A stretch of 20,142 nt of DNA from a virus: the IMG/VR virus record IMGVR_UViG_3300022602_000512, positions 1 to 20,142 of that record; one strand, 5' to 3'. Below are positions 4,417 to 15,485 of this stretch, piece after piece. Within the stretch, counting starts at the first letter, position 1, and each line of letters begins with the position of its first letter. A program made the position numbers and the translations under genes. The notes under the pieces are model-generated. The model searched no databases, was not told the DNA's origin, and was given only the letters and a program-made list of their open reading frames with translations.

Positions 4417-4522
4417 CCCGCTGACGAGCGGGATGGGAACATCAACGGCCGCCAGATGGCGGACCGGGGCGGGAGGTCAGGAACTGCCTCCCGCCCACCC
4501 GTTGACGCTCCCCCGGGAGCGT
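4417..4522 (+). other. candidate structured RNA leader: four successive stem-loops
   Basis: The portal-protease gap (4342-4522) holds no convincing gene but four perfect hairpins in series: 4417-4422 with 4427-4432 (6 bp, loop GACG); 4449-4453 with 4458-4462 (5 bp, loop AGAT); 4467-4476 with 4487-4496 (10 bp, 10-nt loop); and 4505-4512 with 4515-4522 (up to 8 complementary bases, folding as 7 bp with loop CCCG). The last hairpin ends at the base before ATG 4523 and includes the SD-like GGGAG, so it could block initiation. No U-tract follows any stem, which argues against a terminator. A 13-codon micro-ORF (4383-4424) ends inside the first hairpin. Confidence 0.4.
4502..4507 (+). promoter_or_regulatory. 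TTGACR start-associated motif, copy 3
   Basis: GTTGACG, 21 nt before ATG 4523. Its last bases overlap the 5' arm of the hairpin at 4505-4522, so motif and hairpin could be alternative states. Confidence 0.5.
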
Positions 4523-5545
4523 ATGAAATTCCCTTCCATTTCCGTCATCACGGCGGGCCCCGCGCTCGGTCACGGCTGCTTTATCGACGCCACCACGCTC
4601 CAGCAGGTGCTCCAGCTTGGCAATGAGAACGCCCCGCTCAAGGTATTCCCCGACCATAACGAGACCGTCACCGACCTGATCGGTGCCATGTCCAACTTCT
4701 ATCTCGACGGCGACCAGGTGAAAGCCGACCTCGACTTGATCGAGGAGAATCCCCTTTCCGGATACTATGCAAAGATCCTCGACATCTTCCCCGACCAGCT
4801 TGGCTTTTCGATTGCCTGGACCGGCGGCCTCGAGGAGATCGACGGCCAGCAGTACGCCCGCATCAGCGACCTGACCAGCGTCGATCTGGTTAGCCAGCCT
4901 GCGGCCAACGAGGGAGGCCTCTATTCTGCCAAGATCGGATCCCGGAAGCTCAAATCTTCCAAGGCCTCCAAGTCACCCCGAGTTGCCAAGGTGCAGAACC
5001 GCACCCTCGCCCCGAGCGACAAGGGACTCACCCCCGAGGAGATCGCCGCCGATTCCCTTCCCGAGCCCGTCGCGGAACGCCCTGCCGATGTGGCCGAGAC
5101 CCTGCCCGACGTGATCGAGCAGATGCCCAAGCAAGTTGACAGCGAGGATTTGGACACTATGTCGACCGACGCCAACCCCATGCCCGTGACCGCCGAAGAG
5201 GCGCTCTCCGCCGCGCTTGCAAAAGCGCTCGAACCCATCACCGCCGCGATGGCTTCTCTCAATGAGAAGCTCGACCAGCTTGCCGCCGCCGAGACTCAGG
5301 AAGTCATCGGGGACAAGGCCGAACCGATGGACGAGGACGAAGGCATGAGCGCCAAGCTCGCCGAGATCACCGCCAAGCTCTCCGTGCTGGAGACCGCAGC
5401 GACCGGCAGCGCCCCCGTCGCCGGTGGGGCTTTTGAGCAGGCTCCCGTCGACCTCGCCGAGACCTACGCTTCCCTCTCCGGGAAAGAGCAGTTCGCCTTC
5501 GCTAAGAAGCACTTCAACAAGCTCCGCCACATCCTCGTCAAGTAA
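4523..5545 (+). CDS. prohead protease with C-terminal scaffold domain
   Basis: About 340 aa from ATG 4523. The N-terminal domain (about residues 1-140) looks like an S78-type prohead protease: the candidate catalytic His is H45 (FPDHNETVTDLIG) and the candidate Ser is S96 (QLGFSIAW), followed by the strand ISDLTSVDLVSQPAANEGG (114-132). It would mature the prohead by cleaving scaffold and itself. A basic/Pro-rich linker (about 138-212) leads to a helical C-terminal third. ATG 4523 is preferred to the in-frame ATG 4433 because the upstream 30 codons run through the hairpin region and 4523 has the TTGACG motif 21 nt upstream. The acid of the catalytic set is not clear by eye. Confidence 0.8.
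   Translation: MKFPSISVITAGPALGHGCFIDATTLQQVLQLGNENAPLKVFPDHNETVTDLIGAMSNFYLDGDQVKADLDLIEENPLSGYYAKILDIFPDQLGFSIAWTGGLEEIDGQQYARISDLTSVDLVSQPAANEGGLYSAKIGSRKLKSSKASKSPRVAKVQNRTLAPSDKGLTPEEIAADSLPEPVAERPADVAETLPDVIEQMPKQVDSEDLDTMSTDANPMPVTAEEALSAALAKALEPITAAMASLNEKLDQLAAAETQEVIGDKAEPMDEDEGMSAKLAEITAKLSVLETAATGSAPVAGGAFEQAPVDLAETYASLSGKEQFAFAKKHFNKLRHILVK
5136..5141 (+). promoter_or_regulatory. TTGACR motif, copy 4, inside the protease gene
   Basis: GTTGACA, 23 nt before the in-frame ATG 5159, with GCGAGGA between. It sits inside coding sequence, and the ATG it marks is where a nested scaffold should start. Confidence 0.5.
5159..5545 (+). CDS. capsid scaffold protein from an internal in-frame start
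   Basis: 128 aa sharing frame and stop with the protease (Met213 of the long product). Lambda makes its scaffold Nu3 from an internal start in the protease gene C, and this gene offers the same arrangement. The product (MSTDANPMPVTAEEALSAAL...) has heptad-rich segments at AKALEPITAAMASLNEKLDQL and MSAKLAEITAKLSVLET, an acidic stretch between them (EPMDEDEG), and a basic C-terminal helix (KKHFNKLRHILVK) of the kind scaffolds use to hold coat protein. The start is chosen from the TTGACA motif 23 nt upstream and the purine stretch GCGAGGA. Nothing here proves it is expressed separately from the protease. Confidence 0.6.
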   Translation: MSTDANPMPVTAEEALSAALAKALEPITAAMASLNEKLDQLAAAETQEVIGDKAEPMDEDEGMSAKLAEITAKLSVLETAATGSAPVAGGAFEQAPVDLAETYASLSGKEQFAFAKKHFNKLRHILVK

Positions 5546-5586: not shown

Positions 5587-6486
5587 ATGTCCGTCTCCCT
5601 GACCTCACTCAACGACAACCTCATCTCCCAGCTCGCCCTCGAGGCGTTCGTGGTTCAGATGGCTCCCCTGGCGAAGTTCTCGACCAGCTACAGCGCCGAC
5701 GCAGCCCGTCGCGGCACCGTCATCAGCGTGCCCATCGTCTCCAACATCACCGCGACCACGGCATATCCCGCCTATGAGTCCGCCGATGCCGGCAGCGCCC
5801 TGGCCGCTCAGGTCTCGATCACCAGCTACCAGAAGGCAACGGTCGGCGTCACCGACCAGCAGTTCCACGGCAGCAGCTTCGTCGATGTCGAGAAGTTCGC
5901 CTATCAGCAGGGCAAGGCGGTCGCCAAGGCCGTGTTTCAGGATGTGATCGGCGGCACAGTCGGCGTCACCGCCGGATCGAACGCTTACACCAGCGTCACC
6001 ATCACCAGCGGAGCGAGCGCCTTCACGGTTGCCCAGGTCCGCAGCGGCCGTGCGACACTCGTGAAGAACGGGGCAGCGATCGAGGATTGCGTCATGCTTC
6101 TCAATCCTGACACCTTCTCCAACCTCCTGAGCGATTCCACCAACTTGCTCGCCAACCTGGCATTCGGTGGCGACGCGATCAAGGAAGGCAAGCTCCCGAA
6201 GGTTCTCGGCCTCGAGACCCACGAGGTGGCCGCTCTCCCGAGCACCAACAACGTCCTCGGATTCATCGCCCACCCCTCCTCGATCGCCCTGGCCGTCCGT
6301 CCTCTCATCCCTCAGGACAACAGCTACTACATCGAAAGCCGCGTCGTGGAAGATGAGGAGACGGGACTGGCAATTACATACCGCCGTCACTATGCCCCAG
6401 CGAACGGCACCCACTGGGTCTCGATGGAGTCCCTCTATGGTTACACCGCAGGGATCACCGGCGGCGCAGTCATCTGGCACAACTGA
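5587..6486 (+). CDS. major capsid protein (HK97-fold type)
   Basis: 299 aa, directly after the protease/scaffold gene, the canonical position. The N-terminal helix-strand region (residues about 1-60), the Ala/Thr/Ser-rich beta segments, QQGKAVAKAVFQDVIGG as spine helix (about 103-119), the AIEDCVMLLNP strand (about 158-168) and a late domain with SMESLYGYTAGITGGAVIWHN are typical of HK97-fold coat proteins of about 300 aa; the exact family is not clear to me. The start has no Shine-Dalgarno: the 41-nt leader (5546-5586) holds only 3 G and 4 T, so initiation probably relies on an unstructured A/C-rich leader. A strong terminator follows. Confidence 0.82.
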   Translation: MSVSLTSLNDNLISQLALEAFVVQMAPLAKFSTSYSADAARRGTVISVPIVSNITATTAYPAYESADAGSALAAQVSITSYQKATVGVTDQQFHGSSFVDVEKFAYQQGKAVAKAVFQDVIGGTVGVTAGSNAYTSVTITSGASAFTVAQVRSGRATLVKNGAAIEDCVMLLNPDTFSNLLSDSTNLLANLAFGGDAIKEGKLPKVLGLETHEVAALPSTNNVLGFIAHPSSIALAVRPLIPQDNSYYIESRVVEDEETGLAITYRRHYAPANGTHWVSMESLYGYTAGITGGAVIWHN

Positions 6487-6510: not shown

Positions 6511-6537
6511 AGGGGGATCCTTCGGGATCCCCCTTTT
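6511..6537 (+). terminator. intrinsic terminator after the capsid gene
   Basis: Perfect 10-bp stem (6511-6520 with 6525-6534, AGGGGGATCC / GGATCCCCCT) closed by a C(UUCG)G tetraloop and running into TTTT (6534-6537). It lies 24 nt after the capsid stop. The U-tract is short, so partial read-through into the glycosyltransferase and tail genes is plausible, which would set a high capsid-to-downstream ratio. The 60 bases between this and ATG 6598 show no convincing promoter. Confidence 0.8.
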
Positions 6538-6574: not shown

Positions 6575-6580
6575 TTGACA
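6575..6580 (+). promoter_or_regulatory. TTGACR start-associated motif, copy 5
   Basis: GTTGACA, 23 nt before ATG 6598, followed by GGGAGG. As a sigma-70 -35 box it would put the -10 on the start codon with a poor match, so a promoter reading is unlikely. Confidence 0.5.
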
Positions 6581-6597: not shown

Positions 6598-8385
6598 ATG
6601 CACCCGAATACACCCGCACATCCCGTTAGCTTCCCCCCCGGCAAATCCCTCGCCCTCTGCATCATCGCGGGGAATGTCGAACATTACATCGAGCGATTCA
6701 TCCGCTCCTTTCAAAAACTCACCCCGCACATTTTCGTTGTGCGAGCCGTGGGGAATCAGGTGCCCGACCGCACGTTGGAGATCGCCCAGGCGATGGGGTG
6801 CCAGATCAATGCTTATTACAATTCGCCCGAGCATGCCGACTGGCCCCATGTCGACAATTTCGGCGCGGCCCGCCAGATGGCCTTCGACCTCGGCACGGCA
6901 GCCGGTCATCAGTTCCTCATGTGGGCCGACACCGATGACTGCATCGATCCTGAGAGTGTGAAAGAGATTCATGCCCTTCTCCGCGAGCAGGAATTCGACT
7001 GCCTCTATCTTCCCTACCGACTTTCCAATAACAACCTCGCCCCCGTCCGCGAGCGCATCATCCGTGCCGGGACATTCCGCTGGCAGGATCGCGTGCATGA
7101 AAGCCTCGCCGCCGTGATCGAGGAGCCTCGCTATCTCCGGGGAACCGGGGCCGAGGTCACCCACATGCCGGGCACCCATCGGAACGATCAGCCCAATGCA
7201 CGGAACACCCGCATTCTGGAAAGTCTCCGCAAGGAAGATGGGGGTCTTTTGCCCCGATGGTGCTTCTATCTCTGCCAGGAGTACGAGGTGCAAGGCCGTC
7301 AGGAGGAAGCAATCCGCACGGCCTTGGAGGGCATCACCGGTTGGCAGGCCGACCGCAGCGCGCTCCAGTCCTGCGAGGCCTACGAACTCTACGTCATGCT
7401 TGCGCGGTGGGGATCGGATCCGAATGCCAAGCTGGCCCTCCTGCGCGAGGCGTGGGCACTCGAGCCGTGGCGTCGCGAGGCCCTCGCCCTCATGGCCGGT
7501 GCCTATGCCGACCTTGGATCGGCTGCGGAATGCCTCGCCCTGGCACGCATGACCGTCTCCCTTCCCGAACCTCCGTTGCAGCCGTGGACTCATCGTTCCA
7601 GCATCTACCGTTTGGGAGGAATTTACCTCTACACGATGGCGTTGCGGATGAATGGGATGAATTCCGAGGCCGACACCCTCGAGGAGCAGATGTTCCGTCA
7701 GGGTGGATCGATGATCTCCATCATTCACCCGACGCATGGCCGCCCCGCTGCGGCCGCCCGGGTACGTTCCCTCTTCCTGGAGCGCGCCCGTCACCCCGAG
7801 CGGATTGAGTATCTCTTTGGATACAACGAGGCCGACACCGAGAGCGCCGCGATCCTGAGCCGGTTCCGGCATGCCGTCAGCCCGGCCTTTGACGATCCGC
7901 AAAAGCCGACCACCGTGGCAAATGCCAATGCCGCCTTTGCCAAAAGCTCCGGCCAGATCCTTGTCATGGCAGCCGACGACGTCGAGCCTCCCTTCTGGTG
8001 GGACGAGACACTGCTTCAGCAGATCGGCGACCCGACCCAGCCCGCCGTCCTCGAGGTCGGCGACGGCCACCGCAAGGACGATCTCCTCGCGCATCCCGTT
8101 TTTACTCGGAGCGTCCCCGCCCTGCTCGGCCTGCCCCCGGGGGAAATGTTCTCAAGCGAATACGATCATCTTTTTTTCGACACCGAATTCACATTCCGAG
8201 CGCGCAGGGCACGCCTGGTGAAACCTTCCACCCTCACCCTGACCCATCATCACCCGATGTTCGAGCCGGTCGAATTCGACGCCACCTATCAGCGCGGGAA
8301 CAACCCCGAATCCTACGCCCGAGGCGAGGCCACCTATCGCCGCCGCAACCCGGAGGCCTTCGGCCCCGCCGATCTGATTGTATGA
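6598..8385 (+). CDS. two-domain glycosyltransferase (GT2-like, GT-A fold)
   Basis: 595 aa. Domain 1 (about residues 15-240) is GT2-like: it opens KSLALCIIAGNVEHYIERFI, has the family-typical conserved D/N stretch around HVDNFGAARQMAF, and a DXD-type metal/nucleotide-sugar site at D111-T-D-D114 (LMWADTDDCID). A helical middle (about 240-370), with TPR-like helices such as EEAIRTALEGI and AKLALLREAWALEPWRREAL, links to a second GT-A-like domain starting at M372 (ISIIHPTHGRP) with an acidic pair D460-D461 (MAADDVEPPFWW). It probably transfers sugar from a nucleotide donor; the acceptor (capsid, tail or host surface) is unknown. It sits between the capsid terminator and the connector genes and ends in an ATGA overlap. 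The lack of a signal peptide suggests a cytoplasmic enzyme. Confidence 0.8.
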   Translation: MHPNTPAHPVSFPPGKSLALCIIAGNVEHYIERFIRSFQKLTPHIFVVRAVGNQVPDRTLEIAQAMGCQINAYYNSPEHADWPHVDNFGAARQMAFDLGTAAGHQFLMWADTDDCIDPESVKEIHALLREQEFDCLYLPYRLSNNNLAPVRERIIRAGTFRWQDRVHESLAAVIEEPRYLRGTGAEVTHMPGTHRNDQPNARNTRILESLRKEDGGLLPRWCFYLCQEYEVQGRQEEAIRTALEGITGWQADRSALQSCEAYELYVMLARWGSDPNAKLALLREAWALEPWRREALALMAGAYADLGSAAECLALARMTVSLPEPPLQPWTHRSSIYRLGGIYLYTMALRMNGMNSEADTLEEQMFRQGGSMISIIHPTHGRPAAAARVRSLFLERARHPERIEYLFGYNEADTESAAILSRFRHAVSPAFDDPQKPTTVANANAAFAKSSGQILVMAADDVEPPFWWDETLLQQIGDPTQPAVLEVGDGHRKDDLLAHPVFTRSVPALLGLPPGEMFSSEYDHLFFDTEFTFRARRARLVKPSTLTLTHHHPMFEPVEFDATYQRGNNPESYARGEATYRRRNPEAFGPADLIV

Positions 8386-8546: not shown

Positions 8547-8665
8547 AACCGAAGAAACTCGTTTTCAAAAAGCTCTCCCCTGCCGAAAAACTGCTCGCCC
8601 AGTTCCGCAAGATTCAGGAACCCCGCGCTAGAAAAGCCAACTTGACACCCCCGGAGAGGAAATGA
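8543..8665 (+). CDS. tiny basic hypothetical protein (40 aa)
   Basis: ATG 8543 overlaps the preceding stop (ATGA) and its own TGA (8663-8665) overlaps the next ATG at 8662 (ATGA). The product starts MKPKKLVFKKLSPAEKLLAQ and ends LTPPERK; it is basic with one likely helix. Support comes from the exact overlaps on both sides and the lack of any other use for the 115 bases. The TTGACA motif for the next gene lies inside its last codons. Function unknown. Confidence 0.5.
   Translation: MKPKKLVFKKLSPAEKLLAQFRKIQEPRARKANLTPPERK
8642..8647 (+). promoter_or_regulatory. TTGACR start-associated motif, copy 6
   Basis: TTGACA (preceded by C), 20 nt before ATG 8662, with an SD-like GGAGAGG between. It lies in the 3' coding end of the 40-aa gene. 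Confidence 0.5.
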
Positions 8666-9411: not shown

Positions 9412-9417
9412 TTGACA
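9412..9417 (+). promoter_or_regulatory. TTGACR start-associated motif, copy 7
   Basis: GTTGACA, 22 nt before ATG 9434, with CGGGGAA between. It favours ATG 9434 over the out-of-frame ATG at 9427. Confidence 0.5.
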
Positions 9418-10759: not shown

Positions 10760-10932
10760 CCAGTTACCTGGCCCGCCTGGCCGAAAAGACAAGCTGGAGC
10801 TACGAATTCATCCTCTGGGAACTCCCTTTTTCCGAAGGGATGAGGATCCTCGATTTTCATGCATGGATCGGGGGGAAACTCCTCCGATGGGCCGACGATG
10901 TCTGGGACATTGACAGGGAGCCCCTGGAGTGA
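10738..10932 (+). CDS. gpT-like extension, expressed as G-T frameshift fusion
   Basis: Reading in the -1 frame from the slip gives 64 more codons with no good start of its own, ending at TGA 10930-10932. The fusion would be about 222 aa (158 from G plus 64). The extension has the look of T domains of tail chaperones: a helix with SYLARLAEKTSWSYEFILWE followed by LPFSEGMRILDFHAWIGG and a Trp-rich acidic end (WADDVWDIDREPLE). The conserved-looking coding sequence covering all of the otherwise empty 170 bases between the G stop and the next start is the main support. The stop overlaps the next GTG start (GTGA). Confidence 0.62.
   Translation, partial: SWRPGWLTSYLARLAEKTSWSYEFILWELPFSEGMRILDFHAWIGGKLLRWADDVWDIDREPLE
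10910..10915 (+). promoter_or_regulatory. TTGACR start-associated motif, copy 8
   Basis: TTGACA (preceded by A), 19 nt before GTG 10929, inside the end of the T-like frame. It supports the GTG as a start and is followed by GGGAG. Confidence 0.45.
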
Positions 10933-15271: not shown

Positions 15272-15485
15272 AATCAAAGACCGCCTCAAGGTCTGCAAAT
15301 CGTGTCCGGAATTCGTCCAGGAACCGGGAAAATTGCGTCGCTGCCGATTGATCCGGTGCGTCGGATGCTGCGGGTGCGTTTTCTGGGCACGCCTGCGTGA
15401 TCCGTCAGGGAAATGCCCTCGGGGGAACTGGGGGCCTGCTCAGTTGACGCAGGGGCCGAGTCATGACCCGCGATCTCTATGTTGA
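15261..15485 (+). CDS. small Cys-rich putative zinc-binding phage protein (74 aa)
   Basis: GTG 15261 is the only reasonable start after the upstream in-frame region; it overlaps the previous gene by 11 nt. Cysteines are at 12, 15, 28, 33, 36, 37, 39, 52 and 74. The pattern C-x2-C-P, then C-x2-CC-x-C and a closing CPRGNW (52-57) matches a widespread set of short phage proteins of the form CxxCP...CGC...CPxGKW, which probably bind metal; I know this pattern from memory and have no name for the family. The final 17 residues (after about 57) run over the initiation region of the next gene and overlap it by 23 nt. Confidence 0.6.
   Translation: MPIEIKDRLKVCKSCPEFVQEPGKLRRCRLIRCVGCCGCVFWARLRDPSGKCPRGNWGPAQLTQGPSHDPRSLC
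15444..15449 (+). promoter_or_regulatory. TTGACR start-associated motif, copy 9
   Basis: GTTGACG, 19 nt before ATG 15463, within the end of the Cys-rich gene. Bases 15443-15467 resemble 2661-2685 closely (GTTGACGCRGGGG, then CATGAC). Confidence 0.5.

Follow-up and report, generated by a model that had tools for sequence, protein, structure and literature searches.

Genes for scaffold proteins nested within those for capsid proteases are of a kind already known. In phage lambda, C and Nu3 form a nested protease/scaffold pair with an in-frame internal start, the C protease having an SppA/ClpP-like fold. In the Mu-like phage KS10, the protease gene gp28 contains the embedded in-frame scaffold gene gp29 (PMC2628397), and for the cytomegalovirus family four 3'-coterminal transcripts have been cited (PMC4498786). 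Here we describe an arrangement of this kind in a viral DNA of 20,142 nucleotides (hereafter the window), in which, judging from sequence comparison, a short second scaffold protein is very probably made from inside the capsid-protease gene. The unusual and new part of the system is a hexameric start tag, TTGACA, upstream of the nested start codon; a search of the literature brought up no relevant account of TTGACA as a motif in translation.

The protease gene and the reading frame nested in it

In the window, genes for a GpA-type terminase and a lambda-family portal come first and are followed by those for the protease and the major capsid protein and then by tail genes. The major capsid protein gene (5587-6486, plus strand; phrog_283 major head protein, 1.5e-17) has no TTGACA upstream, and in most homologous loci, too, the capsid gene comes after that of the protease. 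In the window it is directly followed by a glycosyltransferase family 2-like gene (6598-8385), located within the structural cluster. The protease sequence gave no match in Pfam or PHROG, and neither it nor the capsid protein of the window had a named phage relative. The protease-scaffold fusion comprises 340 aa and occupies positions 4523-5545 of the plus strand, its start being most likely ATG 4523 rather than the start of the longer ORF at 4433, and a GTTGACG of its own is located upstream at 4501-4507; the numbering of Met213, used below, implies the same start. The tag proper, TTGACG (4502-4507, plus strand), lies 15 nt before this ATG, and in homologues TTGAC[AG] is found 13-16 nt upstream of the protease start.

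The fold of the protease and the boundary between linker and helices were computed directly. The AlphaFold2 model, built on 26 relatives, reached an overall pLDDT of only 64.7, and hence its local elements alone were used: residues 1-125 are confidently predicted as a domain, 126-222 form a disordered linker, and helices span 224-259, 274-293 and 311-339. In a Foldseek search the protease domain matched gp21 of phage T4 (5jbl; probability 1.00, E 8.7e-4) together with many herpesvirus proteases, as well as many phage prohead proteases. His45 and Ser96, candidates for the catalytic Ser/His pair, are invariant in the alignment of relatives. As modelled, the N-terminal domain is a prohead protease with a T4 gp21/herpes-assemblin-like fold. 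Assignment to the SppA/ClpP-like family of lambda C was rejected, considering the missing Pfam and PHROG matches and the listed Foldseek protease matches, all of which have the other fold.

The initial annotation had drawn attention to a GTTGACA and a downstream in-frame ATG inside the protease gene, spaced by 23 nt. Both elements are present, at 5135-5141 (plus strand) and 5159, respectively, and the spacing is correct when counted from the first T of TTGACA to the ATG, 17 nt being located between the hexamer and the start codon. In the protease frame GTTGACA encodes Val205-Asp206 and provides the first base of Ser207. The reading frame opened by this ATG (5159-5545, plus strand) is in-frame and 3'-coterminal with 4523-5545, so that its product of 128 aa, as had been stated, extends from Met213 to the shared stop at 5545. 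Met213 itself is located where the linker ends, the first predicted helix beginning 11 residues later, and the model agrees with the proposed scaffold-like character of the C-terminal product, which is predicted to be helical and to follow a disordered linker.

We infer that the short product is translated, serves as a scaffold and exceeds the fusion in amount. The long ORF would give a fusion in which the disordered linker connects a prohead protease with a helical scaffold region, and the second in-frame start would give the scaffold domain alone. This internal start would be selected by TTGACA, located 17 nt upstream, an element that also marks many other genes of the phage lineage. The short protein, present in excess, would build the procapsid, and the few copies of the fusion would bring the protease into it and later clear the scaffold.

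The TTGACA tag in the window and in related phage loci

TTGACA is present in six copies in the window, all on the plus strand and each 13-17 nt before an ATG or GTG; such a six-for-six placement has p of about 4e-6 at a background rate of 0.127, and the total number of copies is near the shuffle expectation (6 vs 7.3). Apart from the nested site, tags precede the ATG of the glycosyltransferase-like gene at 6598 (6575-6580), ATG 8662 (8642-8647), ATG 9434 (9412-9417) and GTG 10929 (10910-10915), all on the plus strand, where the variant TTGACG is also found before ATG 2681 (2662-2667) and ATG 15463 (15444-15449). The remaining copy, at position 5, stands before ATG 24 of a 14-codon ORF, the stop of which overlaps ATG 65 (ATGA) of a probable small-terminase gene; the segment 5-68 resembles a leader peptide that has a tag and is coupled to the gene downstream. 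A tag before the gene next after the capsid gene occurs also in L007, L008, L009 and other loci.

In 190 kb of 16 related phage loci, a ranking made without any gene assumption placed TTGACA first among hexamers for the presence of an ATG 13-17 nt downstream (z=23.7), with 57 of 68 sites followed by such an ATG against 4.9 expected. Variants serve as well: TTGACT does so at 24 of 53 distinct sites, and TTGACG in the branch to which the window belongs. Over 25 phage loci (the window and L007-L190), 89 of the 93 coding-strand copies of TTGACA were located 13-17 nt before ATG or GTG, leaving four untagged; the total predicted by a second-order Markov model is 54. The same model expects 41 copies on the other strand, where only seven were seen; within coding sequence, antisense TTGACA is depleted fivefold relative to synonymous shuffles (5 vs 25.9 expected), holding rank 21 of 4011 among depleted hexamers. 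The tagged starts open long frames, as 217 of 222 distinct ones begin an ORF of at least 60 codons, vs 57% of sampled ATG/GTG triplets, and whole contigs carry 5-7 tagged ATG starts each, all on a single strand. Around 68 non-redundant tagged sites the distance from hexamer to start was 13-17 nt and about 19% of the starts were GTG; no second conserved element was found around these sites.

Conservation of the nested tag and start codon

Loss of the motif or of the Met in close homologues, named in the initial annotation as the observation that would speak against a nested gene, did not occur: two relatives with 92% protein identity (L002 and L003) keep GTTGACA and the ATG exactly. Conservation of the tag, its codon phase, its spacing and the start codon was computed directly in two sets of genes. 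The first was collected through relatives of the terminase and comprised 51 distinct protease genes, the window included; in all 51, TTGACA stands in codon phase 1 and an in-frame ATG lies downstream, at a distance of 14 nt in 44 genes and of 17 nt in seven. When synonymous codons of these genes were shuffled, the nested arrangement appeared in 9.3 genes on average and in 17 at most. The notion that an ordinary Val-Asp codon pair happens to precede a Met in a Met-containing tail is therefore exceedingly improbable; the near-expected number of copies in the window accords with it, whereas the maximum of 17 genes, set against the observed 51, and the first rank of the hexamer in the related loci do not, and at the level of sequence comparison chance can be regarded as already refuted by the conservation tests.

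The second set, also of 51 distinct genes, was obtained by a protease-alignment search, in which 80 of 374 matched viral loci were listed, and among the matches listed TTGACA together with an in-frame start was found at the junction without exception. The tag is thus kept in all distinct viral homologues of both sets, with its codon phase and its distance of 14 or 17 nt to the start, the homologous proteins reaching down to about 26% identity. In the 95 distinct genes of the pooled sets the nested start is ATG in 87 and GTG in eight, with spacing unchanged, so the expected conservation of Met213 is replaced in these eight genes by an exchange of ATG for GTG, more readily understood at a start codon than at a position where Met is required. 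The GTT and GAC codons of the tag show no synonymous variation in seven clusters of the 95 genes. Elsewhere in the homologous genes Val is encoded by GTT in only 26% of cases and Asp by GAC in 66%, and other Val-Asp pairs have varied codons. The linker differs in length and sequence among the homologues, although the junction tag stays. Between the window and its nearest relative, L002, 75 of 340 codons differ synonymously and none of them falls within codons 198-244 (5114-5254, plus strand), the longest run devoid of synonymous change; by shuffling, such a 47-codon run has P=0.00035, and it brackets the nested start. Since the sequences within each viral set are related, the gene counts are not independent events, and the argument is carried by the seven-cluster result and the deep homologues.

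The Val-Asp-[Ser/Thr] encoded here could matter at the protein level, e.g., as a cleavage site. Self-cleavage by the protease would then release the short scaffold by proteolysis with no second start; the Val-Asp encoded by the tag is indeed located at the protease/scaffold boundary in homologues, and self-cleavage at a boundary of this type occurs in related proteases, as at the R-site of herpesvirus assemblin (PMC4498786). This reading, however, leaves unexplained the fixed GTT and GAC codons and the fixed A that follows them, the start codon 14 or 17 nt further on, the exchange of ATG and GTG, and the presence of the same hexamer before other genes, and we consider it very improbable.

Four more protease homologues came from searches covering 388 genomes in the phylum to which a Verrucomicrobiales MAG belongs and 369 in the class of a betaproteobacterial MAG. 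Those in G236, presumably a member of the Verrucomicrobiota, and in G002 have a tag at each of the two starts, that of the protease and the nested one; in the G182 homologue TTGACG marks the protease start and the internal in-frame ATG is bare; in the G288 homologue the tag is absent. The divergent G002 homologue with both tags (L216, G002:C230) belongs to the betaproteobacterial MAG, and its contig may be misbinned, as it was the single match among the 369 genomes of the class. Homologues from Bacteroides phages have no TTGACA at the junction, yet an in-frame ATG (MSK...), preceded by AT-rich sequence, occurs there in five of five records (L208, L209, L210, L211 and L212). This junction ATG is unannotated in the records. 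The nested start, occurring without a nested tag in the Bacteroides phages and G182, is thus broader than the tag, and the tag is lineage-specific. We assign a probability of about 0.88 to the nested start at ATG 5159 being genuine.

Possible mode of action and comparison with known systems

Several ordinary explanations of the tag were considered and rejected. A Shine-Dalgarno start is not supported, as L002 and L003 have GAGA in place of the window's Shine-Dalgarno-like GAGG but retain TTGACA, and an AGGAGG-like sequence 5-10 nt before the nested start is absent in many homologues. A host-wide start motif was rejected as well: the four genomes used as hosts in this test (G136, G124, G236 and G002), to any of which the window is linked indirectly, show no TTGACA enrichment before ATG, and the excess in G136 over a reversed-pattern control vanished in an unbiased hexamer test. 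Pairing with 16S rRNA finds no counterpart in G236, in whose 16S locus the CACCTCC tail is normal and TGTCAA is absent. A hairpin in the spacer has a weak average effect (MFE -1.8 vs -1.4 in shuffled sequences) and is not evident at many nested sites. Small perfect hairpins do lie between tag and start at some sites, e.g., at about 4506-4521 (CGCTCC-CCCG-GGAGCG), where the loop is changed in L002.

A sigma-70 promoter was rejected, since no -10 box is found 16-18 nt after TTGACA and the plus strand of the window contains no promoter-like site; with the hexamer as a -35 box, moreover, the transcript would start after the ATG. A different possibility is that TTGACA works at the DNA level, as part of a phage-type promoter, the nested transcript beginning between the hexamer and the ATG and being leaderless or short-leadered. 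The depletion of TTGACA away from starts on both strands (by the Markov model, and for the antisense strand also by synonymous shuffles) speaks for it, and so do terminator-like features: a strong hairpin of this kind at 6511-6534 separates the capsid gene from the tag at 6575, and terminator-like sequence is located upstream of the tag of the gene after the capsid in several relatives. The late promoters of phiKZ, TATG with G as the transcription start, offer a precedent for a promoter overlapping a start codon (PMC5312081). On the other hand, the 68 non-redundant sites share no second box; their varying distance to the start and their share of GTG are also awkward for leaderless starts. Considering both sides, we regard this explanation as rather unlikely, with a real chance left to it.

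The reading that we favour, and hold to be somewhat probable, is that TTGACA acts in the mRNA as a non-Shine-Dalgarno signal for ribosome recruitment, perhaps together with a phage factor. It is favoured by the flexible spacing of 13-17 nt, the GTG starts and the absence of a promoter partner; the antisense depletion, which a signal in mRNA does not predict, goes against it, as does the missing enrichment of TTGACA at ATGs in the host sequence analysed. Under either the mRNA or the promoter mode, a separately started scaffold protein begins at Met213. A broader view, which we put forward tentatively and with slightly less than even confidence, is that an environmental phage lineage marks its own starts, the nested one included, by a TTGACA 13-17 nt before ATG or GTG that its bacterial hosts do not use; a phage-specific factor of translation or transcription would read the element, which would have been purged elsewhere from both strands. 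If a phage factor does read the tag, it would be a new viral way to steer ribosomes or polymerase to the virus's own genes. In practical terms, standard gene calling overlooks scaffold genes of the nested type and would not recognise the TTGACA tag, which locates starts, internal ones included, across a large group of environmental phages that have no annotation.

Among the known systems, KS10 resembles the window in that its scaffold gene lies within that of the protease, in the same frame and with a common 3' end, and upstream of the capsid gene; it differs in the Shine-Dalgarno-like AGGA listed before the nested ATG (PMC2628397), whereas here TTGACA is located 14 or 17 nt upstream. The Bacteroides phages BKR1, BK687P3, BK745P3 and BC669P3 share a distant protease homologue, a capsid-type gene next to it and the junction ATG; in contrast to the window, they have no TTGACA, the sequence before the ATG is AT-rich and the nested gene is unannotated. 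The parallel with lambda C/Nu3 suggested in the initial annotation holds for the nested strategy but does not extend to the protease, which in the window matches T4 gp21 and herpes assemblin. The herpesvirus pair UL26/UL26.5 has the same general protease fold, the same order of N-terminal protease and C-terminal scaffold, identical 3' ends and a short form that starts in or after the linker (PMC4498786); it belongs to a eukaryotic virus and has no TTGACA tag. A protease of the T4/herpes type combined with a nested scaffold adds to the head-assembly features common to tailed phages and herpesviruses.
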